Assembly (NCBI GenBank): GCA_022925895.1
Contig: JAKSYS010000065.1
Location: forward strand, 1 to 64,000
DNA length: 64,000 bases
Source: Fragilaria crotonensis
Taxonomy: Eukaryota; Bacillariophyta; Fragilariophyceae; Fragilariales; Fragilariaceae
Direction of reading: 5' to 3'
The notes under the pieces: model-generated
Databases searched by the model: none
Seen by the model: only the letters and a program-made list of their open reading frames with translations
Told to the model about the DNA's origin: nothing
Part shown: positions 3,690 to 49,242 of the stretch, piece by piece
How the letters are laid out: each line of letters begins with the position of its first letter
How positions within the stretch are numbered: position 1 is the stretch's first letter
Translations under genes and position numbers: made by a program

Positions 3690-3700
3690 CCCCTCTTGGA

Positions 3701-17986: not shown

Positions 17987-18261
17987 TGTAGGCATGAAGG
18001 GTATGCTCGGTCAGACAATTGTTCTTGACATAACGATGCATTTTTCATACTGAAAGCCGTGTACCACTACAGTACGTCCTTGCACTCGGAAGGCATCACA
18101 AGTGGTAACACATTCCGTAATTCTGCGAGCAAAACGCTGAAGCGATACAAGAGCGTTGCATTCCATCATGTTCTCCTTTGGATCCAACTCGTCTGTAGGT
18201 GGTGCAGTTGTTGTCATACGCAGCGCTTCTGTTATCGATGTCCTACACGACAGATGAGGTG
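17987..18261. other. Spacer between transposon copy 1 and GAAC-rich repeat
   Basis: No gene is supported. The sequence is ordinary low-complexity intergenic DNA leading into the tetranucleotide-rich tract. Confidence 0.5.
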
Positions 18262-20464: not shown

Positions 20465-20680
20465 TAGTGTGGTTGTATCGGCACTCATTGCTTCAGTAGT
20501 ATTGGTACATACACTGTATGCCTATGGCTGGGTGCACGAAAAAAGGGATTTGGGTAGACTTAGTAGACCATAGTATGACATTTTTGTTTGTACTCCCTCC
20601 GTCGATGCACTCATCACGTCAAACGTCGTGCTTCATTGTTGTCAACCTTCGACAATCACTACCTTCAAATCAAAGGCACC

Positions 20681-20753
20681 TCCCGTGTGCACCGATAGCT
20701 GCAAAGCTTTGTCAAGTCCATCATGAGCATTCGCACTCTCGGTGCACACGGGA
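20681..20753. promoter_or_regulatory. Inverted repeat around transposase start, copy 2
   Basis: TCCCGTGTGCACCGA at 20681-20695 pairs with TCGGTGCACACGGGA at 20739-20753. The ATG at 20723 lies in the 43-base spacer. The arrangement is conserved between both copies, although so is nearly all of the element. It may be a transposase-binding operator or a translational hairpin. Confidence 0.5.
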
Positions 20754-23700: not shown

Positions 23701-23955
23701 TTCAAATCCAGTCTACATCATTGCCTGTCAGAAGAAGTAATAACCATTGAGAGAGTCAGAAAATACGCACGTCGGGCACGACAATACTTGATGGCTTACC
23801 ATGCTATTGATTCAGGACAAGTGGATGCTCAAACTCGCCATGATTGCCTCAAGTATGGCCCGGTGGCTGTTGACAAGTTGATCAACAACTTCAAAACCCA
23901 CCGTTGCGCATTTGACTTTGACTACAAGTTCATCATGGAGGCAATGAATGGATGA
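20723..23955 (+). pseudogene. DDE transposase with SAP-like repeats (copy 2, two 2-bp deletions)
   Basis: The gene starts at ATG 20723 and is read in three frames: 20723 to about 21355, about 21356 to 23300, and about 23290 to 23955. Copy 1 shows that the breaks are two-base losses, at GGAATG(CG)TGAAATC near 21354 and at GGCAAAAA(CA)AACGAG near 23290. The catalytic residues are likely D in YVGQDEAIF (22410), D in FLFDHSSGH (22812) and E in GVEYIWGGAK (23629). The first spacing is about 134 residues and the second about 272. The long second gap holds two SAP-like repeats, a DNA-binding fold. From my knowledge of related fungal DDE endonucleases, the core after the second D (conserved KGLLQVL, DFVNEEGMLQHI and LTPKCHAEL blocks) is shared but the SAP insert is not. 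The first 300 residues have no domain I recognise. Confidence 0.85.
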
Positions 23956-26900: not shown

Positions 26901-27321
26901 AGTGAGTACTAATAGTTTCGTACGCCAATAGAGACGTTAAATGACTGGGACGACAATTGTCTGGCCGGGCTTTTCCTATCTGGGCTACGGCAGTATTTCG
27001 TCCGGAACGGAAAGAAAATCTTATTATGTAACCAGACTGGATATGTGCGGCCCAAGGCCGCGTTGATCTGGGCTACTGGCGGAGTTTATTGTTGTACTGG
27101 TAGTGTGGTTGTTTCAGTACTGCAGTATCGCCGGTACTCATTGCTTCAGTCAGTATCGGTACATACACTGTATGCCTATGTACGGCGGCAATAGAGAGGT
27201 GGGCCGCGTTGATCTGTGCTACTGGCGGAGTTTATTGTTGTACTGGTAGTGTGGTTGTATTGGTACTCATTGCTTCAGTAGTATCGGTACATACACTGTA
27301 TGCCTACGGCACTGAGTACTA

Positions 27322-30137
27322 AAGTATTATTCGCGGCGTTGAGGCTGCAAACTAGGGCTCGACGAATTAAACTGAACTTAGGCTTGTAAGAATTGATTAT
27401 TGATTAATTGTGAGATCATGAAATAATGAAAAACACGAATCGAAATGCGAGCTCCATGATTGAATGAAAGCTGTTCTTCTTTGTTCTTTGCTTGTTCTTT
27501 GATTGTTCTTTGCTGAGGAACATGTGTAGGATGATGTAGAACATGTATGGTTGTGACTAGGAACCATGTGAATGAATCATGTGGATAATTCCCATTTGTA
27601 ACCAGGAACCATGTGAATAGTTCCCCATTTGTAGCTCGGCAGGCGATACGAACCGAGCTGTGACGAGTCGTGACGCATCGGAGAAACTTTGGTTGACGGA
27701 CGGACGAAAGGAGAGATAGAGTATCCACACGACGGTAAGTGCTGACACAGTGGTTTTTCTTTTACTCCCCTCACTCGCTCGACGAAGTCTTCCGATTACC
27801 AACCCATCAATTGCTTCCTCAACTTAGTGTGAATCTGCTCATTGCAAACCTTGGTGAGAATATCAGCAAGCATGTCTTCAGTTGAGACTTGATGAATTGA
27901 AATGGTACCATCTTGCACCTTGCTTCTGAAGTGATGATACTTTGTGTTGATGTGGCGCGTTCGCGGACGCATTTTCGGATTCTTGACACTTGCAGCCAAT
28001 TCCACTGCACCACTGTTGTCCTCAAAGACCCTGCAATGAAGCTGAGGTGTTGTTGCTGTCAATCCACATTCATGCCTTTGCATTTCCTGAATCAACTCCA
28101 TTAAAGGAAGCACCTCTCTGGTTGCTGCTGAAATTGCCAAGTATTCACTCTCAGTTGTTGATAAAGCAATCTCTGACTGAAGCTTGGATGCCCAGATGAC
28201 TGGACAATTGGCATAAAGAATCACATATCCAGTTCTGGACCTTGCAGTGTCTGTATCCCAGTCAGCATTCTCTGGATCCCAATCACCTGTGAAAGAAGCA
28301 TCCACATAGACCTCAAAGCTTTGGTTGCCTGGAGAATAGATCATCCCCTTGTCTCTTGAGCCAACCAGGTACCTGCCCAGCCACTTCAATGCTTTGCCAT
28401 GTTCAAACCTTGGATTGGAAACAAACCTGGCGCCTTGATGCACAGCACAAGAGATGTCGAGCCTGGAGCACTTTTCAAGATAGTTCAACTGTCCAATGAC
28501 CCGCCGATAATTGAAGTGATCATCAAAGGGAGGAGAGTTTAAGTGCCTGCACAGGGTGTTGCTGGAAGCTCCAGTTGTCTTCTTGATAGCGACATCCTTC
28601 CCATCCAACCTTAATTCCTTGATGACATCATTGATGAGGTGAGGCTGAGATAGGTTGAAGGTCTTGTCATTGATTCTGTCAATTTGCACTCCAAGAAAGT
28701 CTGAGATGTCTCCTTCCACAGTGAGCTTGAGTCCAACTGCCGCCATCTCTTTGATAATGTCATCCAACTCTTGAGGATCAGGTCCTGCCAGGATTGAATC
28801 ATCTGTGTAGAGAACAAACATTGACTTGCCCTTGTAGAAGAGACACTCGTCAACTTCACTTTGGATGAACCCAACTTCCTTGAGTTTGTCCACCAAATGC
28901 TGGTTCCACACTCTGCCAGCTTGCTTCTGCCCAAACAAATTCTTCTTGAGCTTGAGGACAAAGTCTTGAGCTTCACCCTCCACTTCAAAGCCCTTTGGGA
29001 TGGCCATGTAAAGTTCACATTCCACATCTGCTTGGGTGTAAGCCAACACGAAGTCAATCTGTTTGGTGTACCAACCATGAATCAGGGTAGTGATGAGCAC
29101 CATCCTGATGGCTGCCCAGGATGCCACAGGTGAGAAGGTCTCCCAGTAATTGACACCTTCCTCTTGCTTGGATCCATCAATGTTGAGCCTGGCTTTCCAC
29201 TTGTAGACTTCACGAGTTGCAATCCTGCGCTTGCGTTTCATTGCCCACACTGCCGGAAGAATCTTGACTCCCTCAGGAACTGATGACCTTGGTACCAACT
29301 CCCAAACTCCATTCTCAGTGTGACTCATGACTTCCTTTTGCATGGCTTTGATGAATTCTGCTCTGTCTGGCTCCCTCATGGCCTCATGGTAGTACATGGT
29401 GTCTGGATCTGCTGATGCAGCATAGGCAAGCATAGGATGCTCCCCTCCTTCAATGTTCACCCATTCCTTGATGGTTTCAAAGGCCACATGATAAGGGAGC
29501 TTGGTTTCCAACTTGGCTTCCAGATTATACCACACCTCCAAGACTTTTGATCCTCTGGCTGATGCTTGTGAGTTCTTGACTGTTGCTTCGCCCTCTGTGA
29601 CCTTGTTGAGCCTTGGAGACCTCCTGGGTTGTTGTGCTTGAGGTTCTTGAACTTGCTCCTCTCCCTCAGACTGTGGTAGTGGTGTTAGAAAGGCTTGACC
29701 CTCTCCCTCATTGACTTCTTCCCCTGGTTCCAGATTGAATTCCATGAAAGGAGCACGCGGTTGCGCTGCCTGGTCTGGAGTAGATTGGTTGAAGCCTTGA
29801 TTCTTGGAAGTCGTTGGGGTAGTGAAGCCACACATCTTCTGCCATTCTGAATGAGGAGACAAGTTGCCCATGGACTGCCTGACTGTTTCAAACTTTGGAT
29901 CAAAGGTGACATGAAATTGAGGTGAGACATGACCAGTCTTCAGGTTGAGAACCAGAGCCACACTCCTTGCATGTTGCATAGACATTCCAAGGTAGACACC
30001 CATCCTTGATCTGACTTCCCACTTGGGCAGCTTCTTCCCAGATTGCATCATGTTGTCAAGGACAAAGACAGGACATCCAAATGGTTGGAAGTGATTGAGG
30101 TTAGGAGTGACTTCAGACTTGGCAAACAACTCAAATG
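27322..30137 (-). mobile_element. 5'-truncated copia fragment embedded in satellite
   Basis: A minus-strand copia 3' portion replaces satellite sequence between about 27322 and 30137. Its left edge cuts into LTR-like DNA that resembles 52.4 kb (shared GGCTCGACGAATTA-type sequence). Its right edge cuts integrase coding sequence at PPFELF. There is no second LTR and no target duplication. The satellite resumes at a different phase on the right, so this is not a clean insertion. Confidence 0.85.
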
Positions 30138-30147
30138 GTGGCGGCAA
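27796..30147 (-). pseudogene. pol: copia pol: integrase C-terminus, reverse transcriptase, RNase H
   Basis: This uninterrupted frame of 783 codons is read through the satellite junction; its first codons are satellite-derived and it has no genuine start. It holds the integrase C-terminal region (HFQPFGCPVFVLDN), the linker, reverse transcriptase with KWKARLNIDGSKQ, VDECLFYKG and the catalytic box YTDDS at about residues 446-450, and RNase H with YVDASFTGDWD (about 613), TESEYLAIS (about 662), EDNSGAVELA (about 708) and ADILTK (about 759). It ends at a normal stop. The box YTDD in place of YVDD is shared with the related copy at 54.1 kb, so it is a lineage trait. The catalytic part has no stop or frameshift, which is unusual for a truncated copy. 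Confidence 0.9.
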
Positions 30148-33100
30148 TGAGTGCTAATTGCTAATAGTTTCGTCCGGCAATAGAGACGTGGGCCGCGGTG
30201 ATCTGTGCTACTGGCGGAGTTTATTGTTGTACTGGTAGTGTGGTTGTATCGGTACTCATTGCTTCAGTAGTATCGGTACATACACTGTATGCCTACGGCA
30301 CTGAGTACTAATTGTTTCGTCCAGCAATAGAGACGTTAAAGGACCGGCTGGCGGAGTTTATTGATGTACTCGAGTACTCTGGTACAGTGTGGTTGTTTCA
30401 GTAGTATCGGTACTCATTGCTTCAGTAGTATCGGTACATACTTCATACACTGTATGGCTACGGCAATGAGTACTAATAGTTTCGTCCGGCAATAGAGACG
30501 TTAAATGACTGGGACGACAATTGTCTGGCCGGGCTTAGTATCGGTACATACACTGTATGGCTACGGCAATGAGTACTAATAGTTTCGTCCGGCAATAGAG
30601 ACGTTAAATGACAGGGACTACAATTGTCTGGCCGGGCGGGCTTTATTGCTTAAGTGAGTACTAATAGTTTCGTACGGCAATGGAGACGTTAAATGACTGG
30701 GACGACAATTGTCTGGCCGGGCTTTCCCTATCTGGGCTACGGCAGTATTTCGTCCGGACCGGTAGTATCGGTACTCATTGCTTCAGTAGTATCGGTACAT
30801 ACACTGTATGGCTACGGCAATGAGTACTAATAGTTTCGTCCGGCAATAGAGACGTTAAATGACTGGGACGACAAACGTTAAATGACTGGGACGACAATTG
30901 TCTGGGCGGGCTTTATTGCGTCAGTGAGTACTAATAGTTTCGTCGGCAATAGAGACGTTAAATGACTGGGACGACAATTGTCTGGCCGGGCTTTTCCTAT
31001 CTGGGCTACGGCAGTATTTCGTCCGGAACGGAAAGAAAATCTTATTATGTAACCAGACTGGATATGTGCGGCCCAAGGCCGCGTTGATCTGGGCTATACA
31101 TACTGGCGGAGTTTATTGTTGTACTGGTAGTGTGGTTGTTTCAGTACTGCAGTATCGCCGGTACTCATTGCTTCAGTCAGTATCAGTACATACACTGTAT
31201 GCCTACGGCGGCAATGAGTGCTAATTGCTATAATAGTTTTGTCCGGCAATAGAGACGTGGGCCGCGTTGATCTGTGCTACTGGCGGAGTTTATTGTTGTA
31301 CTGGTAGTGTGGTTGTATCGGTACTCATTGCTTCAGTGGTATCGGTACATACACTGTATGCCTACGGCACTGAGTACTAATTGTTTCGTCCAGCAATAGA
31401 GACGTTAAAGGACCGGCTGGCGGAGTTTATTGCTGTACTTGAGTACTCTGGTACAGTGTGGTTGTTTCAGTAGTATCGGTACTCATTGCTTCAGTAGTAT
31501 CGGTACATACACTGTATGGCTACGGCAATGATTGCTAATAGTTTCGTCCGGCAATAGAGACGTTAAATGACTGGGACGACAATTGTCTGGCCGGGCTTAG
31601 TATCGGTACATACACTGTATGGCTACGGCAATGAGTACTAATAGTTTCGTCCGGCAATAGAGACGTTAAATGACAGGGACTACAATTGTCTGGCCGGGCG
31701 GGCTTTATTGCTTAAGTGAGTACTAATAGTTTCGTACGCCAATAGAGACGTTAAATGACTGGGACGACAATTGTCTGGCCGGGCTTTCCCTATCTGGGCT
31801 ACGGCAGTATTTCGTCCGGACCGAAAAGAAAATCTTATTATGTAAAGTAACTGGATATGTGCGGCCCAAGGCCGTGTTGATTCTGTTTGGATGTTCAGTC
31901 TTTAGTTTATTGTTGTACCGGCCGCGTTGATTCTGTAAAGATGTTTAGTCTTTTTAGATTACTGATAGTGTGGTTGTTTTAGTAGTCCCAGTACATACTG
32001 TATGCCTACGTTGTTTTGGTAGTATCAGTACATCTACTGTATGCCTATGACATTGAGTACAAAGAGTTTCGTCCGGCAATAGAGACGTTAAAGGACCGGC
32101 ACCATAATTGTAGTATCAGTACTAATTGCTTCAGTAGTATCTGTACATCGACTGTATGCCTACGGCAATGAGTACTAATAGTTTCGTCCGGCAGTATAGA
32201 CGTTAAAGGACTGGGACGACAATAGAGACGTTAAATGACTGGGACGACAATTGTCTGGCCGGGCTTTATTGCTTCAGTGAGTACTAATAGTTTCGTGCCG
32301 GCAATAGAGACGTTAAATGACAGGGACTACAATTGTCTGGCCGGGCCGGCTTTATTGCGTAAGTGAGTACTAATAGTTTCGTACACCAATAGAGACGTTA
32401 AATGACTGGGACGACAATTGTCTGGCCGGGCTTTCCCTATCTGGGCTACGGCAGTATTTCGTCCGGACCGAAAAGAAAATCTTATTATGTAAAGTAACCA
32501 GACTGGATATGTGCGGCCCAAGGCCGCGTTGATCTGGGCTATACATACTGGCGGAGTTTATTGTTGTACTGGTAGTGTGGTTGTTTCAGTACTGCAGTAT
32601 CGCCGGTACTCATTGCTTCAGTCAGTATCGGTACATACACTGTATGCCTACGGCGGCAATGAGTGCTAATTGCTAATAGTTTCGTCCGGCAATAGGGACG
32701 TGGGCCGCGTTGATCTGTGCTACTGGCGGAGTTTATTGTTGTACTGGTAGTGTGGTTGTATCGGTACTCATTGCTTCATTAGTATCGGTACATACACTGT
32801 ATGCCTACGGCACTGAGTACTAATTGTTTCGTCCAGCAATAGAGACGTTAAAGGACCGGCTGGCGGAGTTTATTGATGTACTCGAGTACTCTGGTACAGT
32901 GTGGTTGTTTCAGTAGTATCGGTACTCATTGCTTCAGTAGTATCGGTACATACACTGTATGGCTACGGCAATGATTGCTAATAGTTTCGTCCGGCAATAG
33001 AGACGTTAAATGACTGGGACGACAATTGTCTGGCCGGGCTTAGTATCGGTACATACACTGTATGGCTACGGCAATGAGTACTAATAGTTTCGTCCGGCAA

Positions 33101-33283
33101 TAGAGACGTTAAATGACTGGGACGACAATTGTCTGGCCGGGCGGGCTTTATTGCTTCAGTGAGTACGAATAGTTTCGTGCGGCAATAGAGACGTTAAATG
33201 ACTGGGACGACAATTGTCTGGCCGGGCTTTCCCTATCTGGGCTACGGCAGTATTTCGTCCGGACCGAAAAGAAAATCTTATTA

Positions 33284-33396
33284 TGTAAAGTAAAAGTAAA
33301 GTAAAAGTAAAGTAATAAAGTAAAAGTAAAAGTAAAAGTAAAGTAAAGTAAAGTAAAGTAAAGTAATAAAGTAAAAAGTAAAAGTAATAAAGTAAT
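33284..33396. repeat. GTAAA/AAGTA microsatellite at the array edge
   Basis: The tract consists of GTAAAGTAAAAGTAAA variants over about 113 bases. The seed sequence TATGTAAAGTAAAAGTAACC occurs at internal unit boundaries (about 26225 and 32485), so the microsatellite seems to have expanded from the end of the last unit. Confidence 0.85.
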
Positions 33397-33665: not shown

Positions 33666-35054
33666 TTACTCGTCCACAGCTGCCGACGAATTTCGTCCTG
33701 GCTGCGTATGAGAGTGTCGTTTGGCTTCTTGTTCCCGCTTTTCCTTTGCGGCTTCTTCCTCTAGAATTTTGCGTTTTACATCTTCCATACGTTGAATCCA
33801 ATCAACCTTTTCGCTGACTTTCACCTCGTTCGGCCAGAACAAACTTGGAATATCCTCGACTCTCGCAGCGGGCAAGATTTGGTACAAATTGGGTTCCACC
33901 AACTCGCTAACTTTGCGAATGTACAGCGCTCCTGTTCTTCGTATCGAGCGCAAGTCGTAAATTCCCAAAAAGTAGGGTCCCCAAGGTTTCGGAGCGTCCA
34001 CCATTGCAGACTTGGGAACATCGTAATGTTGACGAAGCGGAACCACGCCAAATGCGCTGGGAACGTGTTCGTCCATGCGCTCATAACGCAATGCCGTCAT
34101 TTCCGGTCGAGTAGCGAGAGAGCCGTTGGCTAGGACCGGTGGTAATGTCGTTTCGTTGAACGGGGCCACGTGCATGAGGAGCGTGGCGATAAAGGTTTCA
34201 TCGGTCATAAGGCGTCCCGCTGCAATCAAATAATCACGAAAGCGGCTCACCAAACTGTCCGGTCGAGCCAAGGACTGTATGACGTAGGAACAGAAATCAG
34301 GGAGTAGAGCAACCCATTGAGACCCAAAGTGAATTTGCATGGTAATTGAGTCGTTATGACCTTCGTCATTGACAAAGTCGATTTCAACATCACCTCCTGG
34401 ATTTCTGGTGTAGTGCCTTCGTTTGTGCCACCAGTCTGGAAAGTGATAAACGTTGGTGGGTAAGAAACCAGTTTCACATGAGCTCGAAGTGGCAAAATTG
34501 ATCCCCTTGAGTTCATTTGCAAAGAGCCGACCAATGACCGCGGGAGTGTAGACAGGCATGGAATCTCCGGAAAGGTTGATGAAGACATCCCACTGATCTC
34601 CCCGCAGCAAGGCTTGCTCCATACCCCAAAATAATGGATCATTCATACTCCAGGCCGACCATTGGGCCGAGTGAACTGAATCCACAATCACTTCCGATCC
34701 GCAGGGACAGGCAATGATTTCTTCACGCAGCGATGAGTGGCGGTAGACATTGAAGTCAAGTTTCAAATCGACGTGAACAAAAATGAGATTGTAAGGCGAC
34801 CGAATGGCTCGAAATAGAGGTGTAGCATCCTCAAGTGTGCGATTGTTGTGGACGATAATGAGGTAAGCAATGCGTGCGACGTCACAGTCTGGGCAGGCAC
34901 CATCAGCATCGCACCAACAGTCTGACGACAGCAATTGGTCAAGCAGTGGCTGAGGATTAATAGCAGCGATTTCCTCTATGTCATCGCACAAGATTGAAAG
35001 AGGTAGCGACAACAACAGCCACAGGAGGAAGATTGCCAATGCCATGCATGCCAT
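33666..35054 (-). CDS. Family-14 glycosyltransferase (core-2/I-branching type), type II membrane protein
   Basis: The 462-residue protein starts at an ATG followed by a hydrophobic N terminus (residues 2-23), fitting a signal anchor for the Golgi or ER. The catalytic region spans about residues 62-380 and has the family landmarks: AYLIIVHNNRTLED (63-76), NLIFVHVDLKLDF (89-101) and WDVFINLSGDSMPVYTP (155-171), which matches the NLSG-D-P box of branching GlcNAc- and xylosyltransferases. The tail (about 420-462) is charged, with EEEAAKEKREQEAKRH, and may be a coiled coil. Cysteines cluster at 46-58. The frame is intact and is the best candidate host gene in the window. Sugar donor and acceptor cannot be told from the sequence. 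It sits between a satellite array and a large copia element. Confidence 0.85.
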   Translation of the reverse strand: MACMALAIFLLWLLLSLPLSILCDDIEEIAAINPQPLLDQLLSSDCWCDADGACPDCDVARIAYLIIVHNNRTLEDATPLFRAIRSPYNLIFVHVDLKLDFNVYRHSSLREEIIACPCGSEVIVDSVHSAQWSAWSMNDPLFWGMEQALLRGDQWDVFINLSGDSMPVYTPAVIGRLFANELKGINFATSSSCETGFLPTNVYHFPDWWHKRRHYTRNPGGDVEIDFVNDEGHNDSITMQIHFGSQWVALLPDFCSYVIQSLARPDSLVSRFRDYLIAAGRLMTDETFIATLLMHVAPFNETTLPPVLANGSLATRPEMTALRYERMDEHVPSAFGVVPLRQHYDVPKSAMVDAPKPWGPYFLGIYDLRSIRRTGALYIRKVSELVEPNLYQILPAARVEDIPSLFWPNEVKVSEKVDWIQRMEDVKRKILEEEAAKEKREQEAKRHSHTQPGRNSSAAVDE

Positions 35055-35295: not shown

Positions 35296-35633
35296 AGCAC
35301 CATCTACTTGCATCGTACCTACAGATACTAGCACAGTCGCTACGCCTACTAGCACTGTGTCTTCGTCTACATGTACTGCAGTTACGCCTAGTCATACCGT
35401 AGCTCAGTATACCCGTCCCGTAGACTACCACGCGTATACCGTCGCGTTTGCTACTAGCACTCCCGCTTCCTCTGTCGCTAGCGTAGCATCCAGTAGTCCT
35501 GAAACCGTAGCACCGGCCAACGTTCGTACTGTAGCGACCGTGACGTCACCACCTGCCTGCGACCCCGGTCTGGCGTGCGCCCGATTTAACCATGGTCTGG
35601 CCTCCACTCCGCGCTCGCACGCAGAATCTATCA
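35296..35633 (+). repeat. Truncated 5' LTR
   Basis: This segment matches 46221-46597 from AGCACCATCTACTTG to GAATCTATCA. It lacks a 12-base stretch and one copy of a 27-base tandem duplication that the 3' copy has. The missing upstream part would include the promoter region, so the element is probably not transcribed from its own LTR. Confidence 0.75.
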
Positions 35634-35646
35634 TGGTTCACTCGCC
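35634..35646 (+). other. Candidate primer-binding site
   Basis: TGGTTCACTCGCC directly follows the LTR end. TGG is the usual start of a site complementary to a tRNA CCA end. I could not assign the tRNA, and the call rests on position alone. Confidence 0.35.
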
Positions 35647-35877
35647 TAGAATCAACCGACTTAGGCAGGCATCCTCTGCCCTTTTTAACTCTGATACCTT
35701 CAGGTTAGTTAGGCTCAGGAATTCAGTTATGCTTCCATCTAAACTGTCAGATCTGAGCAACTGAAAATAACAGAATTTTTCAACAGAGCTCCCCCAGATT
35801 CAAAGTGCATACAAATATTTAAGAACTTAGTTAGCAGCCCCAGCCCCTCCAGCAGCATCATTTCAGCCCCAACCACC

Positions 35878-38800
35878 ATGCCCACCATTCACTTCAACCT
35901 TACGAAAGCTGACAAGAAGTCGAAGAAGAAGGACTCGTCCCCCTTTTTTGCCTCCAAAACGGAGCCTCCAGTCGTCATGAGCACAGATGCCAACATTCCT
36001 GCCGCTACGCCCACCCATCCCACCCTTTATCTAACTCGCTCAAAGAGAGCCACAATGAACTTTACTAACACAAAGACTAAGAAGAAGAAGCTTCCCACTA
36101 CTCATGCTGCAATTACCTACGAAACTAACAACGATGAAGCGGCCGTCATCGCCGAGGCCATCGAACGCGACAACTCCGAGTGCAACTTTCTCCCAGGGCA
36201 TCCTTACAACTCCTATTGGGCGCAACAAAACATTCAGGGCTACCTTTTCCGCCGACGATGACAACGATGAAGCGGCTAGCAACGCCGAGGCCATCGACAG
36301 CGCGACTCCAGAGCGCTTCCCAACTCACACAGCAATGAAAATCAAGCAGGAGTACATTCCAGACGTTGTAAACACTCACCATTCCACCCCTGCGCGCAGC
36401 CACCAACCCCAGACAGGCTTATTCGATGAAAGCGACGTCGACGACGACGATTACAGCGTTCGCAGTGACGACGACCGCAAAATTCCAGCTCCCACCCGCC
36501 CAAAATCCACCAGAAAGCGACAATTCGATGACTCCGACGTCCCAGCTTGCTCCCCTGATGTTCCCCCTGCGAAAAGGATGCGTTTTCAGACGCAAAAACA
36601 GCCAGAGATTCGTTACAAAACCCGCCAATATGTTCTTGAAAGTGGAACGCATCAAATCAATTACGTGGGACCTGCGATGACGCGCACGACAAAAAAGGTT
36701 AGAAACTCCTCAGGCGCTCCAAGACCTGCAAAACAAGCTGCCACTTACCAAAATTGGAGCGACCAATCCGGAGATATCGCTGCTCAAAGCGACCCCATGG
36801 CGGACCCCCAATTCCCAATTTCCGACCACGACCATGATCGTGGTGATTCGCACCATCAGCTCCCAAGAGTCCTGGACTTAGGACATATTGGACCTCCACG
36901 CCGAACTGCCATTGTACAGATTTCTTTCAGTACTGCGGCTGCAACTTTTGGCAGCCCATCCGTCCATATTTTCCCCCATAACGCAAACGTCATCTTGCGT
37001 CCGACCGGTTTTGAGATCCTACCCACCCCTCTCCGTCCGCGCGCGCCAACCCCGACTTCCGAAATGACTGACGCGTCTGACGATGTTCCAGCTCGTTCCA
37101 CAACCAACATTTATCGCGATGACGATATGGATGACGATGACGATGACGACAACGATAGTGACGTAGTTAATGCTTCAAGTGTCGTCTCCATTTACTGCCC
37201 GTGTCCCAATCAATTATGCCTTTCCGTTCGCAACCAGACACTGCCCACCAAAGCACAAAAAGCTCCCGCTGACGTTGAAGTTGAAGAACAAAGCAACGGC
37301 GACAAAAAGGAATCTCAAAAACAACTTGGTGCACCCCCAATGAATCAAAACTCTACCTGCTCAGTCCCAGATTCCTCAGACAATGATGACAGCACAGGCA
37401 CCAGCTCATTTATCCCAGATTCCTTCACAGTCAAAACAATGGATTCCCTAACTCTCATGGACAGGATGACAACCAGAAAAGCTACCAAAAATATAATAAT
37501 GACGAAAAATATTCCAAGACCAGCAAGATTGTTACCACCAGCCAAGTCATCCCAGCAACCCAGGCAATTTGCAACTCCCATCAATGTTGCCAACCCTTTT
37601 TATGTTAAGCCTCCCATCAATGCTGCAATCCCATTCACCATTTCAATTGATGATGATGAAACTGAGACCCCTTCAACTCCTTCCAGCAGACACAAAACAC
37701 AACCATGTCAGATCAATGATTTGAAAACCTTCAACACCTCTGGACCCAGGAATCTTGATGCACCACCATCTCCGGCAGTCAGTCTCAATTCAGAACTTTT
37801 CAGTCCCTTGTTTTCCAATTTGAGCAGCAGCCATGACAGTACCTTTGATTGCCTTTCCACAACCACTGGAATCACAGCATTTCTTGAGCTATCTGATGAT
37901 GATGAAACTTTGGAGCTTCCATACCACCTTGACAAACTGCACATCCCTTCCCCTGAAGACAATATCTTGGACCCAATCCATCATATTCCCTTTTTGCAAC
38001 ACCATTCTGATTTGGATTCCAGAACCAATCCACATGCCTCACTTCTTTTCTATGCTGATGCAACTCTTCAGGATGACATCAATGGGCCAATCACCATGTG
38101 CAACCTTCCAACATGTGTTGATTCAAGTATCACAGCTGCAAGCTTCTGCCTTTGTTATATTCAGTCAAATCCAGCCACCAAACAATGCATTTGCGACTTG
38201 ACGACCGAACATCTTCGCCTCCTCATGTGCAATCTCTATCCCATTTTAATTGCTGGATCTGACAAAGACCCCAATCAAGAGGAATTCATTCAATTCATCC
38301 AACATACTTTCAACAGAACTACCAATTTGGTCATGGACAATCTTTCTTCTGAGCACAGATCTCAACTCACCAATGGCATCCCATCATTATTTGTATCCCT
38401 TTTGAGTGACTATGAACCTGGATCCTTTGGACATGAATGCTCCCTATCCATCCTTTATGCCTTCAAAATGATGTACCTCATTCACCTTTATATTCAGGGA
38501 CAAACATCTTCATGCCCTCATCAACCGCCTGAACTTGCTGATATCATTTGCAATATCCCAACTTTTGCGACCGCTCGACGTCTTTTCCCAAACCGAAGTA
38601 ACTTCAGAGATGTCCCACGCTTCATCATCAAATTCTTTCAAGATCAGCAACTAACTCCCAGTCCCTATGATACCACTTTGGACAGCACCAGGACTTGCCA
38701 TATTCAAACTCCTGCACATTTGGACTCTGCATATCTCATTGCATTCACTCATTCACCGCTTGTTAACGGTTTTGGAGAACATACAACTGGAATATCTCCC

Positions 38801-41101
38801 CCTGCTTCCCATGTTGCCCGTGTCTTAATTTCAGCCACACTCCGCCAACATGCAATTTTGACTGCCAAACTCACAATTGGAGATGACCTACATTTGCAAC
38901 TCTCAAACATCTGCATTGGTTCCCTCCCTCCTGCTGATCTTCTCATGAATCACAATTGCTCAGCCTTCCCAATGGCCACATTACCAACACCTGAACAGCT
39001 ATCAACCATGGACTCAAAAGCCACTGCCATTGCCGTCAACTTTGTCATCTGCCATCCACTCACTTCCAATGATCTTCAGAACTTCACCATCCCAACTGGA
39101 AACTGTGATTATGCAACCCTCAAGTCTCACTTTGACCCCATCAAGACAGATGTCATTAACCACTCCATTGATTTCCTGCCAGATCATGAATACACCATGT
39201 TCAGAGTTGTCTCAAACATCAATATCACTGACCCTCAATGTGTCCTACCTCAAACACCCTTGCCAACCAAAGTCCTTATCTACCAAGGCAACACCCAAGA
39301 GCATCAGTCAACTCCTTTTTACACTTCAGGCTCCCCAACTGAGTTTCCCATTCCATTGCCAAGTGCTCATACTTTCCCTATCATCTACAACAAGGAGAAC
39401 AAACCAATCATCTTTCATCAACACAACAGGACCATCAAACCCTACACAACCACAACAGTCCAACAGCTTTTCAGTGACCAAGCCTCCATTCCAATGAACA
39501 CCTGTTATGCTACCAATCCCTGGACTTGTCCCAATAATCCTAGCCAACTTTGGCGCCAACCTAACCCTGTTTATCATGTCATTGATGATCCCAAAACCAT
39601 TCCATTGTCTCTTGCAACTCGCCTCATCCAAGTGATCACTACAAAACGTGGATCCACCAATGTCTATGGATCCTGGGCTCTCCCACACCTTGAGAATGCC
39701 CTCAGCAACCCATTGTCTCAGATCACTCACAACCCTTTTTCATATTATTGGCAACAACACAATCATCCTGAATATCCCTTCATCAAAGAGTCTGAACCCA
39801 ATATCTTGAGCAACCTTCCTGGTGAGTCTGGTGTGAACACTAGTCTCTTGAACAACCAGGTTACTACTTGCAACTTACCTGATCCCTCTTGCCTGTACAG
39901 ACACATTGGTGTAATTGCTACAAGAATGGACAGCAGTAATTGTAATGTAGTAAGATTTCAATTGGACAAACAAGAATCATCTTTTTGTGAACACACAGCC
40001 CGTATGGTTGTCCGCACCCGTAGATCGTCTCTTCAAGAAGAAAATCCCCCTGAAATTGAACCAGAAACTGCAGATCCAGATACTTCTGATAATTCGTCCG
40101 AAACTGACATTTCCCGACACGAAACGCCAAATATTGATACAAATCAGCCATCTTCCGACGTCCAAGCTCAAGAAATTGACACTCCTGCTGAAAATCCTTT
40201 GAAATGTCTTTCACGCACTGTCACACAAATCCTGTCACCAAAATCTGTGCAATCAGACACCCAAGTTGAAACATCCTCACCTAAGACACCCAAGCCATCC
40301 AAACCTGCAGCAAAGGACAAGCAATCAGAACCTGCAAAGCATCCAACTTTTGCCTATCCTCCAATTCATGAAACATTCTTTACTGATGATGAAGACAATG
40401 AAGACCAACAGGATGACCCTCCTCAGATCCCTTTGCAATCCCCAGATGCACTAACTTCTTCAACCAGAACTGACTTCACTTATCCACCCATTGAAGATTT
40501 AACTAAAACCCTTTTGAAATATGCCAAAAATGCCAATCTCCGGAAACTTTCATACCCAACCGATCTTGTTGCTCGACGCCAACAATTCAATGCCTTCATG
40601 GACAACCTCCGCATTGTTTGCAACATCTCTCCCTGGACACGCCAAGTCTTTGATCTTTGGCCCAAACAGATTTCCTACTCCCATCCCTTCATTGGCACTG
40701 CAATTTACAACCTAATCATTACACATGTTTGTGACCCTTGCCAGAAACACATCATTGATGGCCCACCAGATACAAGAACTGCAATCTTTGCTCTCCGCCA
40801 ACATTGTGCTCCGCTTACTCCAGATCATGTTGAACGCACAAGAGAAGCCTTTTATTCAATCAAACAAGGTCACAATGAAGTTGCAACCTCCTATTTAAAC
40901 CGCATCCGAGTTTTGACGCGCGATTGCTACCACGCCGGCATTCCCAATACAGACGCGGAACTTATCAAAAGAGCCATTCGCGGTGGAAGTAATCACCATT
41001 TTATGCTGCCTCATACCAACGCTTTGATGCTGACCTCCGCAGAGCCGAACTTAACGATGAAGAATTGCCCGCTTTCTCCGAACTTGAAAGCCATCTTTTG
41101 A
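35878..41101 (+). pseudogene. gag: Gag of copia element with giant N-terminal extension
   Basis: Translation likely starts at ATG 35878 (PTIHFNLTKADKKSKKKD). A frame change around 36180-36260 leads into a frame that stays open from 36104 to 41101 (1,665 codons). The Gag domain proper covers only about residues 1484-1650 of that frame (ARRQQFNAFMDNLRIV, ALRQHCAP, YSIKQGHNEVATSYLNRIR). Everything before it is unknown: a Pro/Ser/Thr-rich part with acidic clusters (DESDVDDDDYSVRSDDD) and KR-rich spots, then from about residue 660 to 1310 a more folded-looking section rich in His, Cys and hydrophobics, then another acidic linker. The Gag frame itself needs a minus-one shift at CATTTTATG near 40999-41007 to continue into the pol frame. 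A single T loss is the simplest explanation. Confidence 0.7.
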
Positions 41102-44010
41102 ATATTGACGAATCCCGTGGCCTAACTTTGCCATCGCAAAATCAACGCAATTATAACCAACATGCCAATGCTGCCCGTCAACAATTCCATCGCCCTGCCC
41201 ATCGCCCGACATTCCAAAAACAATTCACCCCGCGACAACATCAAGCTCTCAGCTCAATTCTGCGACCTTATACCCAACAAAACAGCAGCAGCAATCGGCC
41301 ACCAATCAGACCCCAAAGCAACCAAAACTCGCATCCAAACCGCCCGAACAATCACCAAAACAATCGTCGCAATCCTCCGCCACCAAGACCAAATCATGGC
41401 AACCGACCACCCTTGCGACCAACTTCATCAAACTCCAACAATCAACGTCAACCGCAGAGCAATTCCACCCCACTTTGGCGAAATCCTTCACCCAACAATG
41501 CCACTAACATTGTTTGCAACAATTGTGGAAGAACTGGTCACTATGCAAGACAATGCCCAACTGCAAATAACAGACCTCAGAACACCAATAACAGGAATGG
41601 AGGAAATCCAAGGTCACCAGCCAATAATGAGAACACTGCTCCTAGAAATCAAAGAGCCTATTTTGTCACTGATTCATCTTCACCTCATGCTGAAACAACT
41701 CATTACCATCAAGCCTTCCTTGCTTCATCAAACAACAACCCTGTCTTTAACAATGGACCACCAACAATCTGGCCTGATACCAACTTGCCTCAAATGGAAA
41801 TCAACCCATCACTGACTGACAATGATTTTATACCTACCATGTCACATTCACCTCCCAACACTGATGCAACTGAATACTTTCCAGATGATCCCATGTCTGC
41901 ATATCAACGCTTTGGACCACCAGATCTTGATAATTGGCTCCCTGACAGTGGTGCCACAAGTCACGACACTCCTCTTTTCAGTGATCTGCATGATGTTGAA
42001 CCCTGCCATGTACCTGTTTCCCTTGCTGATGGAACCACCAAGATATCCACTTTCAAAGGCACAACTGACTGTTTCTTCACAACCACAGAAGGAGAGAAAG
42101 CTATCCTTGGTCTTGCTGATGTTTACTACATTGAAGGTCTTAGCCACTGTCTGCTTTCCCTGACTGCCATCTCTGCCACCCAAAACTTCACAGTCATCAT
42201 CCAGAACAGAGCAACCACAATCCGTTTTCCCAATAATTCAACATACACATGGCCAACCATCCTTCAAGAGTTACCCTCTGAACAAGCTTTCTCCATGATT
42301 TCACAACCCAACACAACTTCTGATGACACTTCAAACTCACCTGCCATCACTTTTGAGCAACACTTGGACACTTCAACCAATCCAAACCCAGACCAACCTA
42401 CTGCAACCTTGCCACTTGAGATCACATCCCGTTGCCTTGCACACTGCAACTTCCGCAATCTTATGACTGGATCCCTTCACCATGTTTGGAATGACCACAT
42501 TTTGTCACCAGCCACTGACACTCAAACTTGGCCAATCAGAATCTCAATCAGCCAAAAATGCGCCAGAAGCAAAGTCCCACTCTGCCAAGGTTCAGAACCA
42601 TTCCACCAACTTCACCTTGACCTTCTAAGAAACCCATTCCGTTTTGGCCTGACAACTAGCACAAACTATTCTGCTTACCTTTTCATTGTGACAACCCCTG
42701 GCAAACTAACTGGTTGGATTGGACTACCCACTGAAAGCACTTTATCCATTCTTACAGCCTTGCAATCTTGGCTCACACAATCAGAACTTCGTGGACGCAC
42801 CCAATCTGTCCGCTTTATCCGCACTGATGCTGGAACAGCCTTTACTTCAGCCAAATTTATCTCAACTTGCACAAATCTTGGAATCAAAGTTGAAGCTGCA
42901 GCCCCTCAACATCAAGAAATGAATGGAATTTGTGAAGCCAAATGGAGAGAAGTCCACAACATTGCAAACACTCTGCTCAACACTGCCAGACTTGGAGGTG
43001 CCTTCTTTCACCATGCTCATGCCTATGCAGTCCAAGTTGTCAATGCTTGCCCTGCAAAGAATGTTACTGATCAAGATGGAAATCCCACAACTCCCTTCCA
43101 CTATAGTTATGGCCAAAAACCCAGCCTCACCAACTTCCGTGTATTTGGATGCCCAGTCTATTTCAAACGTTATGAACCAACTTTTCAAAACAAGTTGATC
43201 ACTTACAAGCAACAACTCCAACGCGCATCCCGTGGAACATTTATTGGATTCCCTGAAAACTCTGCTGGCTGGCTTGTCTACTCTCCGGACCATCCCCAAC
43301 AAATTATCACAACCCGTGACGCTTATTTTGATGAAGATTTCAGCTCTGTCCTTGCTTTTGACTCCAAACCCTTTGCTGGAGCCATTCCTATCCGCTCCCA
43401 CATGGACCCTAATGGACTTGAAAATGTTAAGAATTCTGAACCCACTATCATTCACCAAACTGGATCTGTTGCCAACCTTGGAATCAACCCTTCTTCCTTC
43501 ATTGAAGAACTCACAACAGAAGACCCTTCAGAAGCCCTAAACACAAGCACCAATAATGTTGAAAACCACCCTCCTACTGAGACTATTGACAATGATGATG
43601 ACACTGATGATGATGATCTACAACCTGGTCCAACACCACCTGCACCTCAACTGCTCAATCTCACTCATCACCAGAAGAGACACACACCCCTTCAGAAAGA
43701 GATGACACTTTACTTTCAAGAATGTGCTGAATCACCACCATCCATTGATCCTATCCACACTGCCATGCTTACCCTTGATGCCTCTGCTGACACATCTACA
43801 GAAAATGATGATCCTGTTGATAAATACTTGCCAGAACCCCAATCCTTTCAAGCTGTCCTCAAACTTGATGATGACATCCGCTCTGCCTGGCTTCATGCAA
43901 TCAAAATGGAAATCAAGAACCTCATTGATCATGGTACCTTTATTCTTGGACAGAAACCCCGCGCTGACGAATTGATTATCCCAGTGAAACTTGTACTCAA
44001 AGCAAAGTAA
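41065..44010 (+). pseudogene. pol: copia Gag C-terminus, protease, integrase, start of reverse transcriptase
   Basis: This 981-codon frame carries Gag's C-terminal part (AFSELESHLLNIDESRG), an Asn/Pro/Gln-rich stretch, and a CCHC zinc knuckle, CNNCGRTGHYARQCP, at 41515-41559. The aspartic protease motif DSGATSH follows at about residue 294. The pre-integrase zinc region has HCNFRNLMTGS. Integrase catalytic residues are D519 (HLDLLRN), D588 (IRTDAGTAF) and E624 (NGICEAKW), a DD35E spacing. Then comes an acidic linker (DDDTDDDDLQPGP) and the first reverse transcriptase block (YLPEPQSFQAVLKLDDD). It ends at a TAA (44008-44010) where the related remnant at 10.8 kb has CAA, so this stop is a mutation. 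Confidence 0.85.
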
Positions 44011-45658
44011 ACAGCATCTGGCAAAGTTGACAAACTCAAAGCCCGCCTTGTTGCTTGCGGCGACATGGAAAAGAGAAGAATCAAGAAAACAAAAGCAAAG
44101 TATCAGCAACAACTACTCAAACAAAGAGAAGAAAACACCAAGAAAATAAATAAGTCTAACACTATCCCAATTGAGATCCCTCTACCTTATGAAGACACAT
44201 GGTCACCCTGTGCATCTTCAAGAGGGGTCAAGCTCCTTATATCCAAAACCTGTGCTTTCTGCCGCATCCTTAAAGGTGCTGACTTCATTGGAGCCTATCT
44301 TCAAGCCAAGGTTATTTGATGTCACTTTGTGATCCTGCCACTTTACCTTGCTTACCACTTCCCAGAATATGCCAAATACTTTGGAGTCCCACTTCTTCTT
44401 GATAAAGGAATCTATGGTCTTGTCTACTCAGGCAAATATTGGAACATTGACTTCTCTGAATGGCTAAACTCTCAAGGATTCATTCAATCCCAAGCAGAAC
44501 CATCCTATTTTGTTGACTATGACAAACACAATCAATGGCTTTGCCTCCTATTCTTCGTCGATGACATGCTTTATGTTGGAAGCAATGATTCCATCGAGAA
44601 ATCTTTCGAAGATTTTGTCCGCAACTGCTTTGACATGAAATTCCTTGGTCCTGCACAATGGTTCCTGCAAATGCGCATCCACCGACACAAAGATTCCACT
44701 TACACTCTAGACCAACATTGTTATGTCCTGAACGCTCTCCAACGTTATGACCCAGATTCCGAATTCCCTGAACGCAAAACTCCCTTCCCACCCAATTACG
44801 TCTTTAGCAAAGAGAATCGCCCTGTCACTGATCACCACAAGTCTATTATTGAGAAAAGACATTCCCGCCTCCCGTTTCGCTCAGCCGTATGCACCCTACT
44901 TTATCTTGCATACAACACACATGCTGATATCCTTTTCGCAGTCTGCAAACTTGCAAAAGCCTGCATCTGCCCCGGCAAACTTGACTTCCGTGCCCTTATC
45001 TGGATATTTGGCTATCTCAGATGCCGACCCAGCTATGCTTTGAAATTCTATCCTGATGGCACTTCTAATCCAATCTGTAGCATCTGTGCCCAAACACAGC
45101 ATTCCATACTCTGACCTAACTGTCTTCTCTGATGCCAGCTGGCAAGATTGCCCTGACACTGGCAGATCAACTGTTGGATACATGCTTTTTCACAATGGTG
45201 CCCTCATTGAAGCCAACTCAACAATGCCTACACCAATTGCAATGTCAACCTCTGAAGCTGAATACATGGCAGCCTGTTCTGCAACTATGGCTACTGCACA
45301 CATCAGAATGCTTTTATATGACATGACATATCTTGGCACTAAACAATGGCGCAAATCATCCCAACGCCTACCTACAATCCCATCTGTCCTTATGATTGAC
45401 GATGAAGCAACTGTTCAAATTGCCAAGAATGGAAAACTAACTTGCAAAACACGCCACATTGAGCGACGCTTTCACTTTGTCCGCCAGGGCCAACAAGATG
45501 GTACTCATCAACTCTATTGGATCCCTTGTGACTCTCAACTTGCTGACATCCTAACCAAAACTCAGACATCATCCAAGATTGATCCCGACCTTAACAAAAT
45601 CTTTTGCGCACTCCCTGATCACCTACTTTCTCCATCACCAATTTCTACGGAGATCTGA
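44011..45658 (+). pseudogene. pol: copia reverse transcriptase and RNase H, interrupted
   Basis: The sequence continues in frame after the TAA (TASGKVDKLKARLVACGDMEK), meets a TGA at 44317-44319 where the relative has GGC, and then reads AYHFPEYAKYFG, DKGIYGLVYSGKYWN and the catalytic box FVDDML (about 44555). A frame change near 45060-45110 leads to RNase H: TVFSDASWQDCPDTGRS, STSEAEYMAAC, DDEATVQIAKNGK, RHIERRFHFVRQ and ADILTKTQ. The final stop is at 45656-45658. Two stops and one frameshift make this copy inactive. The box FVDD in place of YVDD is a conservative variant. Confidence 0.85.
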
Positions 45659-45669
45659 TTCAAGAGGGG

Positions 45670-46597
45670 TGACAGACTTTTAGTACCAATCCTACGTAGT
45701 TTGCTGTTTAGATTGTACAGTGCTACAATACACATTAGGCTAGTAAACAGTATACGTCGTATCCTTACTGTCGTACGGGAATCATATCCCACTCAGAAAT
45801 TGCAACGATCGTTTTCATTCGTTCGTCATGTAAACGATCATTTTCTCGCCCAACGCTCGGCCTCGCACGCTCTCTTCAGACGTACACCTTTTCAGACGTA
45901 CACTCTTCAGACGTACGTTGTTTCTTTTGTGATCCTGAGTGTTCCTGGAGAACACTCATCAAAAGAAGTTGATCATCATTTGATGATCAACAATTTCTCA
46001 TAAATTTGTCCAACTGTAAATATATTTAGTCCGGCCCCCATTTTTCTACAATGTATAATTTTACTCGCAGCGTAACTGACCATGACGACTTTTTACCCGC
46101 CGTCATCATGGTTCAGTCCCCCTGTAGCGATAGCCAGTGTACTAGTACCCACTTGGCTACCGACGTCACCGTAGGACTCCACCCACGTCCACATACTGTA
46201 GTGTCACCTACGCGCAACGTAGCACCATCTACTTGCATCGTACCTACAGATACTAGCACAGTCGCTACGCCTACTAGCACTGTGTCTTCGTCTACATGTA
46301 CTGTAGTTACGCCTAGTCACACCGTAGCTCAGTATACCCGTCCCGTAGACAACCACGCGTATACCGTCGCGTTTGCTACTAGCACTCCCGGTTCCTCTGC
46401 CGCTAGCGTAGCATCCAGTAGTCCTGAAACCGTAGCACCGGCCAACGTTCGTACTGTAGCGACCGATACCGTCACCGTGACGTCACCACCTGCCTGCGAC
46501 CCCGGTCTGGCGTGCGCCCGATTTAACCATGGTCTGGCGTGCGCCCGATTTAACCATGGTCTGGCCTCCACTCCGCGCTCGCACGCAGAATCTATCA
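45670..46597 (+). repeat. 3' LTR of large copia element
   Basis: The repeat is 928 bp, from TGACAGACTT to GAATCTATCA. It follows the polypurine tract at once. It contains three GACGTACA repeats around 45889-45916 and a tandem 27-base duplication near 46506-46560. A frame of 183 codons in it (46051-46602) is Thr/Ser/Val-rich and is likely incidental to the LTR's repetitive sequence. Confidence 0.7.
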
Positions 46598-47672
46598 CAT
46601 AGCCTCACATCTACTTCAAAGCCAGAATTCAAGGTTCGTTAGATCAGACACCTATAATTGTGTTACACACCTTGTACGAAGGAATGTAATTCAACACACC
46701 CGATGTGCGCAACGCAGAGAAATCAGGGACATATTTCTCGACACAATCTCACAGTACAAGCACGACACTACTACAGAGCATTCGGCCTCTGGAGATCCGA
46801 GTCGAAACAACCAGAGTGACGATTTCTGACGTCAGCATCTGAAGTCCATATACAAATTTTGCGTATAAAATCAATAAAACGCACAGCTAATGGACAATGG
46901 GAATCATTCATTATATGTGTGCATCACATTCTCGTTGCGATTGCAACGTTTCTGTTTGCGTTAACGGCATACACATGTACTCGAGTATGTTGGTAATATA
47001 TATAAGGCCGATCCTACAACAAAAACAAAAACAAAACCTGATGAGACCTTCATTTTGTTATTGCTTGTGTTTTTTATGGTTCATGTCCCCAACTGTTGCC
47101 AACAGATACAAAATATTCTTCACATGAAGCAATGGATAAAGAATTATGCATGATATTGTCGTCTTTCATGTGTTCTGAATTCATGGCACTCCGCCGCCAA
47201 GGGTAACACAGTACCAGGCAGGCCACGGTGAAGTTATACTTTAACCATACTGCACATTTGGACTGCTGACAGTATTCTGTTTAACACTGCGACCTACCGA
47301 ACAAATACTGCTGTGCGGTGTTATACTGTGACATGACACGAAGCATGTGTGTGACCATACGTTGGTATTATGGTATAGCACCCGATGTATACTACGTTAT
47401 ACCCCAGCGAATACCGGTAAGACAAAGGTATACACAGCATCTAGATAAACCTAACATGTGCTAAGCACATGTTGGATATAGCGATATGGTGCATGATCTG
47501 CCTTACTGGTGGATCTCACTCTTTTGTTGAATAACTTGAATTGTAATAAGTGCTGTCCCATGAGACAGGCAACTTTGTACGGTTAATCAGACCCAGCCTC
47601 TATGATATGAGAAGAAAATGAATGAAATACCACCAGTGTTCGAATGGCATGATATGCAACTCATTGCCGACA
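46598..47672. other. Region upstream of copia gag, possible 5' LTR
   Basis: No gene is supported. The sequence includes ATATATATAAGG near 46996, which could be a TATA box, followed by an ACAAAAACAAAA tract. If the site at 47674 is a primer-binding site, the part just before it, ending ...CCGACA, would be the end of a 5' LTR. The outer LTR edge cannot be seen because the matching 3' LTR is absent. Confidence 0.4.
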
Positions 47673-47829: not shown

Positions 47830-49242
47830 ATGGACATCGAAGAACTTGACAACGTGGTCAACAAACCACAGCCACCTGTGATAGATACGATCCTCACATG
47901 GATTGGATTCGAGCAAGAAGCAACTGGCCAACTCCTTCTTGATGAAGGGTTCGAGTCATTTGCAGACGTACTTGTAATGAAGGAGAAGGATGTCCGCAAC
48001 CTCGCAGACTCCTATGGAAGGCACACGGTCGCCGATGGACGCTCCATATTCGGATTGCGCAGGACCCGATACCTCATTGGACTAATCCACTGGGCTCAAG
48101 ACTACCAGAGGATCGGCGAGGAACCAACTATCATTGGTATTCAGGACGCTATCCAGTTTTGTTCGGCTCTCGACAAAGCATACAAACGCGCCGATGTTCG
48201 TAAGGTAGAAAAGGAGCAGTCCGATACCGTCAGCAAGGCAGCCGACCCAGGCAAGTTCAAGGACGAACGCAAATGGCCTGAATGGGAACCAGCATTCGTG
48301 AACTACCTATCAACTATTCTCGGCGTCAACGGGATTCCCCTTTGCTACGTTATCCGTGAACTCGCTGAACCTGACCGCTCCGCCAATTTTGCCAGCTTTA
48401 ACAAAAGGGCAATCGCATGTGCCCCTCTGAACGGCTCGAACTTCCAAGCCGACGCCTGGAAGGTACATCAGCTACTGAAGCGTTTCCTTCATGCCGAATC
48501 GGCTGAACAGTGGATCAAGCCCCTGGCAAAGCACCAGGATGGCCGCAAGGACATGGAAGCCCTCAGAGGTCACTACAGCGGTGAGGGCAACACTAGTCGT
48601 CGTGTCGCTGTTGCTGAAAGGTACCGCAATACACTCCACTACAAAAACGAGAGGGCTCTATCCTTCGCCGTATTCTTGGATAAAATCCAAACAATGTTCA
48701 ACATCTTTGAGACGGAAGGCGAGCCGGTGCAAGAACAAGCCAAGGTTCGAATGCTTCTAAAGAAGGTGGAGCACCCACAGCTACAAACTGCCGTGGGGAC
48801 CCTTCAAGTTCGTGCTCAGATGGACAAGGTCACGTTCACTGAGTGCGCAAACCACTTATCCGCGATTGTATCAGAATTGCCTGACTATCAACTCAATCGC
48901 AAAGTGCCGGCGACTGACACTACAAGGTCAAAGCCAAACGCATTCAAGGCGGGGGTGGAAGCGGTAACTCCCTCGCGTCTAAGCGCAAAGGTATCTACAT
49001 GCCGGATGGTTCCATCTGGCCAGGTTACTACTCCGACTGGGAGAAGATGTCCGACGCCAACAAGCAGACAGTAATGGATACCAGAAAGAAAAATAAAGCG
49101 AAGGGAACAACCCCCAACAAGAGAAAGGTTAGCGACATTAAGTCTCAACTTGCCCCAAGCTGAAGAAGTCTATCGCAGCAATCAAACTCAGCAACTCGTC
49201 CAAAGATGACAACATGTCCGCCACTCACAAGTCCAGTGTCCC
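47830..49242 (+). pseudogene. gag: copia Gag, frame-shifted near its 3' end
   Basis: The protein starts at ATG 47830 (DIEELDNVVNKPQPP) and stays open to 49074. It is homologous to the Gag at 61222 over most of its length, with shared GHYSGE/EHYIGE, VQEQAKVRMLLKKV and VGTLQVRAQ segments. An N-terminal SAM-like helical region (WIGFEQEATGQLLLDEGFESFADVLVM in part) is followed by the capsid-like part. The original C terminus, with IWPGYYSDWEKMSDANK, is in the next frame after a one-base slip in a GCGGGGGTGG run near 48945. Coding similarity ends near 49242, where minus-strand pol sequence begins. Confidence 0.75.

Follow-up and report, generated by a model that had tools for sequence, protein, structure and literature searches.

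How should an LTR (long terminal repeat) retrotransposon be read when it has more coding sequence ahead of Gag than in Gag? The question is raised by an element of the diatom Fragilaria crotonensis, located in positions 1 to 64,000 of contig JAKSYS010000065.1 (assembly GCA_022925895.1; this whole stretch is called the window below) and assigned by its pol domains to the Ty1/copia superfamily. LTR elements are commonly interpreted as gag followed by pol, with a polyprotein that begins with Gag, whereas here ~1,480 residues precede Gag within one forward-strand frame (36104-41101). The reading favoured here, with a probability of roughly 0.6, is that this extension is a lineage-wide accessory polyprotein domain of a large, decayed Ty1/copia element, and that it probably acts in trans.

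Coding character of the extension

The frame counts 1,665 codons from its ATG and 1,680 from stop to stop, starting at 36059, and the original prediction was right to take it as real. Among 300 composition-matched replicates of a first-order Markov model the longest open run averaged 148 codons with a maximum of 284, and the remaining five frames over the same stretch stay open for at most 182 codons each. Gag occupies the final ~165 codons, with the zinc knuckle in the next frame. A Retrotrans_gag match (E 0.0015) was obtained on the sub-fragment 40451-41101, below the cut-off of Pfam.

By composition residues ~600-1290 are fold-like, with 31-40% FILMVWYC, in agreement with the earlier view that the middle section resembles folded protein, and they are flanked on either side by disordered-type sequence (residues 1-600 and ~1290-1440). 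By the rough measure of codon-usage correlation the middle section (38075-40084) agrees with the pol of the element (r=0.89), while against six other open reading frames (ORFs) of the window the values are 0.11-0.46 for the middle section and 0.11-0.41 for pol. The frequency of G at third codon positions is 0.09 in the middle section and 0.08 in pol, compared with 0.23-0.30 in the six other ORFs.

Copies across the genome

The assembly (62.1 Mb, 881 contigs) was searched with the extension protein, which returned 59 match stretches at 27 places on 26 contigs, the window included; a pol query returned 62 stretches. Five cousins recognised by pol and fetched for their long open frames all carry the extension (5/5), with a middle domain 35-55% identical and a Gag 82-86% identical to those of the window copy. 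With three cousin domains as queries, the overlapping sets of match stretches numbered 109, 119 and 95. Even the remotest of the long alignment rows match a core of ~650 residues (~37,916-39,898) at 31-33% identity.

To avoid picking loci by the extension itself, the integrase of an outgroup copia element (L001, described below) was used as a genome query. An extension match lies at most 12 kb upstream on the same strand at 79 of 90 integrase loci (74 within 5.1 kb; median 3.8 kb). This pairing set 90 integrase against 122 extension places, with one entry per place and those of the window included; further pieces of one element were left out, and the searches scored best candidates only. Conversely, 43 of the 122 extension places show no integrase match within 12 kb; most of these were not read, and some do have pol (for example C7, C434, C449, C41 and C224). 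In this genome the extension is a trait that one copia lineage shares across many of its elements.

Selection on the extension

The ratio of nonsynonymous to synonymous substitution rates (dN/dS) was calculated for 18 loci, each against the window copy only, without a tree or significance test and with segments shorter than 60 codons excluded; two of the loci, L016 and L028, are one element. The sample was not random, as L028-L032 were picked for open frames and L033-L046 for open frames and diversity. In the 12 close copies the values are 0.21-0.45 for the middle domain and 0.24-0.69 for the N-terminal part, next to 0.08-0.52 for Gag (11 measurable close copies) and 0.06-0.50 for pol. L004, L007 and L023 account for the highest values of Gag and pol; their frames are broken, and misalignment is the likely cause. 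In the copy L003 dN/dS is 0.27 for the N-terminal part, 0.21 for the middle domain, 0.14 for the linker, 0.08 for Gag and 0.12 for pol.

For the cousins the middle domain gives 0.15-0.36 at dS of at least 1.0, L032 being undefined, and five pairs that do not involve the window copy give 0.05, 0.24, 0.25, 0.28 and 0.68. Middle-domain dN/dS is thereby below 1 in 25 of 25 values (0.05-0.68), two of which repeat an already counted pair. The linker between middle domain and Gag yields 0.13-0.26 in 10 of 15 defined comparisons and 0.34-0.70 in the other five. The middle domain is under purifying selection, weaker in most copies than that on Gag and pol.

The original prediction had suggested a new function encoded by the element, to be abandoned if other copies lacked the extension or if its codons proved unconstrained. 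Neither is the case, given its presence upstream of 79 of 90 related integrase loci and the ratios of its middle domain, all of them below 1. What stands is a coding, element-borne and constrained sequence; what has to be corrected is the notion of a novelty of one element, since it is a trait of the lineage.

Where the protein starts and ends

The longest frame, in copy L003 (325-7818), has 2,498 codons and leads from inside the LTR across primer-binding region, extension and Gag into the start of pol, which it follows to about ORF2 residue 433, beyond the protease-type region and short of the integrase core. By coordinates ~1,830 residues lie ahead of Gag in this copy. In L013 and L016 the end of the domain, Gag and integrase are joined in one frame. 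These three copies read through in one frame, so that programmed frameshifting after Gag is rejected as a general rule. Gag was correctly placed at the end of the window frame, but the end at 41101 itself comes after a break in the Gag of this copy, beside a short run of T at ~41,037, and several other copies continue into pol in one frame.

The start at 36104 did not hold. An ATG at 35878 opens an adjoining frame (35743-36261), which joins the main one at a break between the halves of a repeat (36106-36169 and 36239-36302, offset 133 bp) encoding similar peptides in two frames, and the coding stretch of the window copy probably begins before 36104. The two LTRs of the window carry a matching open frame (46030-46602 and 35297-35764), which is rich in Thr/Ser/Val. 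They differ by 5 substitutions over 338 aligned bases and by 12-bp and 27-bp length differences; the latter are multiples of three, so that the LTR frame is kept. In C291, a derivative described in the next section, the long ORF likewise starts within the 5' LTR. On this pattern of frames, translation may be inferred to begin inside the LTR. In yeast Ty1 the Gag frame also starts in the 5' LTR and crosses the primer-binding site, with no large domain before the capsid part.

A derivative family without the domain

Six places matched just the last quarter of one cousin query, and three of them (C291, C322 and C774) were read. In C291 and C322 the frame goes straight from pre-domain to post-domain sequence with ~610 residues gone, and C774 aligns with C291 across the deletion junction at 95%. 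Gag and nucleocapsid are retained in C291 and C774, and between Gag and the next LTR no integrase or reverse transcriptase (RT) was found in either, just a short RNase H piece in C774. In C322 only ~1.5 kb beyond Gag was read, and the match stops within Gag. The C291 LTRs are ~900 bp long and 97.2% identical over 905 aligned columns, and the remaining ORF has a dN/dS of 0.87 between C291 and C322 (one pair). This family has shed nearly all of the domain, plus integrase and RT in two of the members read, and is probably non-autonomous.

The joint loss of domain and enzymes is a hint, although not proof, that the domain works in trans. The genome holds a natural experiment in which full elements with the domain exist beside derivatives without it, two of them also without integrase and RT, and this coexistence makes the role of the domain testable by ordinary means.

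Searches for relatives

No convincing family match to the extension was found in Pfam, PHROGs or PDB (NCBIfam and PADLOC were outside the search), which bears out the description of a large unrecognised coding stretch. Pfam was run on the whole protein, on pieces and on members of the alignment, and PDB sequences were compared with single proteins and with profiles. A similarity of 28 to 43 residues to designed Armadillo repeats was rejected, as its E value (expectation value) of 0.003 with 6 and 13 alignment rows rose to 7.9 with 31 rows. Pfam lines for orthomyxovirus nucleoprotein, DUF1970 and plant transposons (E 0.08-0.13) and a PHROGs line on a Gag fragment (E 0.086) are at chance level.

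Scans beyond the genome reach close relatives only, because short exact peptide patterns are required. Within that reach, viral contigs yielded no relatives with the extension protein, ORF2, the RNase H alignment or the integrase alignment, tblastn against phages yielded none, and a collection of genome contigs yielded none with the extension, whereas the RNase H alignment retrieved from it a single distant copia, L001. The L001 contig is filed under a metagenome-assembled genome of the cyanobacterium Moorena and is probably a eukaryotic contaminant. A 55-bp end overlap and a polypurine tract suggest that it comprises one LTR plus the entire interior. Compared with the extension, the 5' region of L001 shows no similarity at E below 1; its LTR-to-gag region of ~3 kb contains a sense ORF (388-3080, +) and a 321-residue antisense ORF (1433-2398, -), unlike the window extension.

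Comparison with known elements

Among published titles and abstract openings, which include few subscription journals, no copia element with a large folded domain fused ahead of Gag was found. The CoDi elements of diatoms resemble the window element in being Ty1/copia, in their order of protease, integrase, RT and RNase H and in LTRs mostly bounded by TG/CA (PMC2806351, PMC2774666). They measure 5,182-8,062 bp (Maumus et al. 2009, PMC2806351), whereas the window element, compared by description, has ~11.3 kb with a shortened LTR and falls outside this range of 5.2-8.1 kb. The CoDi authors sought an ORF1 upstream of the polyprotein ORF, and in clade CoDi-A integrase is reported to end in an additional domain, a chromodomain (PMC2806351). 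No comparable domain is named for CoDi in the accessible text of that paper, its Additional file 1 being outside the comparison (PMC2806351).

Extra ORFs are also described for plant LTR elements, where the eORF-5'F class has a sense ORF in the 5' part and 582 Ty1/copia elements carry an extra ORF of at least 250 codons in any position or orientation; these are counted as separate ORFs, and the parts available mention no N-terminal addition fused in frame to Gag (PMC6317226, PMC7264820). ORF0 of Retrosat2 resembles the extension in that it adds coding sequence ahead of gag-pol, evolves faster than the gag-pol ORF, lacks homologues outside its own lineage and is missing in some relatives; it differs in being a separate ORF, in an element whose LTRs exceed 3 kb (PMC3485330). 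Ogre and the giant Burro elements are likewise giant LTR elements with extra coding capacity, but they are Gypsy-like, and in Burro Gag is N-terminal and the extra domains follow it (PMC6431247). The window element departs from the Ogre/Retrosat2 type in that its integrase lies ahead of RT and in that its extension, rather than forming a separate pre-gag ORF, is in the Gag frame both in the window and in L003. The Ty3/gypsy pol order is defining for elements of the Ogre/Retrosat2 type; Retrosat2 is Ty3/gypsy-type, and one Ogre ORF (ORF1) is situated before gag.

Possible roles of the domain

It is proposed that the polyprotein would carry up to ~1,800 extra residues ahead of Gag, composed of an LTR/leader stretch, a disordered-type N-terminus, a domain of ~650 residues and a linker. 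Translation would start within the LTR, and the domain, set free from the Gag precursor by the protease of the element, would act in trans like the pol enzymes, so that deletion derivatives could borrow it. To judge from sequence, its role is most likely non-structural and accessory (nuclear entry, target choice or counter-silencing) and not that of a component of the capsid shell. A bolder version, put forward tentatively and at less than even odds, is that of a new domain family known so far from a single copia lineage, a trans helper (for example against silencing or in nuclear targeting) that is N-terminal in an LTR-started polyprotein and parasitised by the derivatives.

Several points weigh against the favoured reading. 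Eleven of the 90 integrase loci have no extension in reach: C162, C70 and C650 lie at contig starts, C340 has an extension 15.8 kb upstream, C148 retains the last part only, though 4.5 kb upstream was read, C142 was read too short, and five (C123, C33, C108, C7 and C420) are without explanation. Five of the 79 positive loci are more than 5.1 kb from their match and may represent other insertions, and no shuffled control stands behind the 79/90. Some dN/dS values are high, at 0.68 for the middle domain of L034/L037 and up to 0.69 for the N-terminal part. A single-sequence AlphaFold2 model of 38075-40084 gave a mean pLDDT (predicted local distance difference test) of 31.8, which is of no use as support for a fold. 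The codon-usage correlation is a rough measure because the short Gag of the element reaches just r=0.53 against pol, and the match may partly be an effect of base composition. Finally, action in trans is inferred from one derivative family of which three of six places were read, with integrase and RT lost in two and both LTRs checked in one derivative only, and random deletions could yield the same pattern.

Of the rival explanations, an open frame arising by chance or as an assembly artefact is counted as refuted: the forward strand over 36-42 kb is C-rich and G-poor (skew -0.27 to -0.38), which lowers stop density, but the 300 Markov replicates never exceeded 284 codons and the sequence is conserved at many separate loci with dN/dS below 1. 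The extension could instead belong to the structure of Gag, as an enlarged matrix-like N-terminus that remains attached to the particle and gives it shape or binds to membrane, chromatin or RNA. That it shares a frame with Gag in the window and in several copies would fit, as would the constrained linker (0.13-0.26 in 10 of 15 comparisons). However, the derivative family retains Gag without the domain, which therefore seems dispensable in cis, and Gag is far better conserved than the domain in the five cousins (82-86% versus 35-55%); a structural role is accordingly rated as rather unlikely.

Capture of a host gene by the lineage, with which it would now evolve, agrees with a large domain that is fold-like by composition and with the lack of anything similar in L001. 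It is nevertheless improbable, as no match outside the element lineage was recognised in the host genome, most places not having been read, the domain searches in Pfam, PHROGs and PDB (NCBIfam and PADLOC excepted) were negative and codon usage is near that of pol. A separately translated upstream accessory ORF comparable to Retrosat2 ORF0 or Ogre ORF1, in the Gag frame by accident, has precedents in the extra ORF before the gag-pol ORF of Retrosat2 (PMC3485330) and in the extra ORFs that plant LTR elements may hold upstream of gag-pol (PMC7264820). The 2,498-codon frame of L003, which covers LTR, extension, Gag and the start of pol, makes this quite unlikely here, as do the long frames around the matches at C840 (2,284 codons) and C430 (1,795 codons), whose ends lie beyond the sequence read. 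For annotators, the accessory polyprotein domain favoured here implies that such a protein may come from a transposon when it turns up by itself in metagenome or transcriptome data.

Features of the element and its surroundings

The zinc knuckle, Pol_BBD, SH3_retrovirus and RVT_2 (the copia-type RT model), followed by RNase H, give the pol order protease-integrase-RT-RNase H and therefore identify the element, on its predicted domains, as a Ty1/copia LTR retrotransposon. The residues before Gag are treated as a variant trait that is not decisive for the superfamily. The LTR has TG...CA ends with a polypurine tract before the 3' copy, and the 5' LTR is shortened at its start, where the first ~550 bp are gone. 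Even so the element spans 11,302 bp (35296-46597). The window copy is decayed: pol is stopped at 44008 and again at 44317, and the frame is broken near 36.2, 41.04 and 45.1 kb.

Table 1 Features of the Ty1/copia element, in window coordinates
Feature	Position	Strand	Remarks
5' LTR remnant	35296..35633	+	3'-most 338 bp of the LTR; direct repeat with 46221-46597
Primer-binding-site-like stretch	35634..35651	+	directly after the CA of the LTR, within the reading frame; proposed from position and TGG start alone
Open frame starting in the LTR and crossing the primer-binding region	35297..35764	+	runs on without a stop into the extension in copy L003
N-terminal basic segment, ATG in other frame	35878..36261	+	frame break before 36239
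N-terminal low-complexity part of extension	36104..37903	+	basic and acidic patches, disordered by composition
Middle domain of extension	37904..39973	+	conserved core ~37,916-39,898, by alignments
Linker, middle domain to Gag	39974..40543	+	composition, dN/dS
Gag, capsid-like part	40544..41037	+	weak Retrotrans_gag; followed by frame break in the window copy
Nucleocapsid zinc knuckle, protease-type region, integrase	41065..44007	+	zf-CCHC, Pol_BBD and SH3_retrovirus above cut-off; rve below
Reverse transcriptase	44011..45111	+	RVT_2 E 2.6e-16; interrupted by stop at 44317
RNase H, another frame	45095..45631	+	own sequence and match to second copy
Polypurine tract AAGAGGGG	45662..45669	+	identical motif in second copy and ahead of the LTR of C291
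3' LTR, complete, TG...CA, 928 bp	45670..46597	+	contains open frame from ~46,030

A second decayed RT/RNase H copy of the same lineage lies at 3688-4933 and 10377-11188 (-). Its RNase H (3722-4258, -) is 84% identical to that of the element, with dN 0.088 and dS 1.43. The second copy is split by a nested element of ~5.4 kb with terminal repeats of 455 bp (4935-5388 and 9925-10377) that are 99.3% identical.

Immediately upstream of the element an ORF (33666-35054, -) matches the Core-2/I-branching enzyme family (Branch), and just downstream a 414-residue ORF (47830-49074, +) has a weak DUF7083 match (E 0.0003, below cut-off). Elsewhere in the window a 3.7-kb inverted duplication (14315-18005 and 20508-24202) is 98.9% identical between its arms, each of which contains one ORF with a weak SAP match below cut-off. 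Large tandem arrays of ~85- and 103-bp repeats (24158-33390) surround a further copia pol ORF (27796-30147, -).

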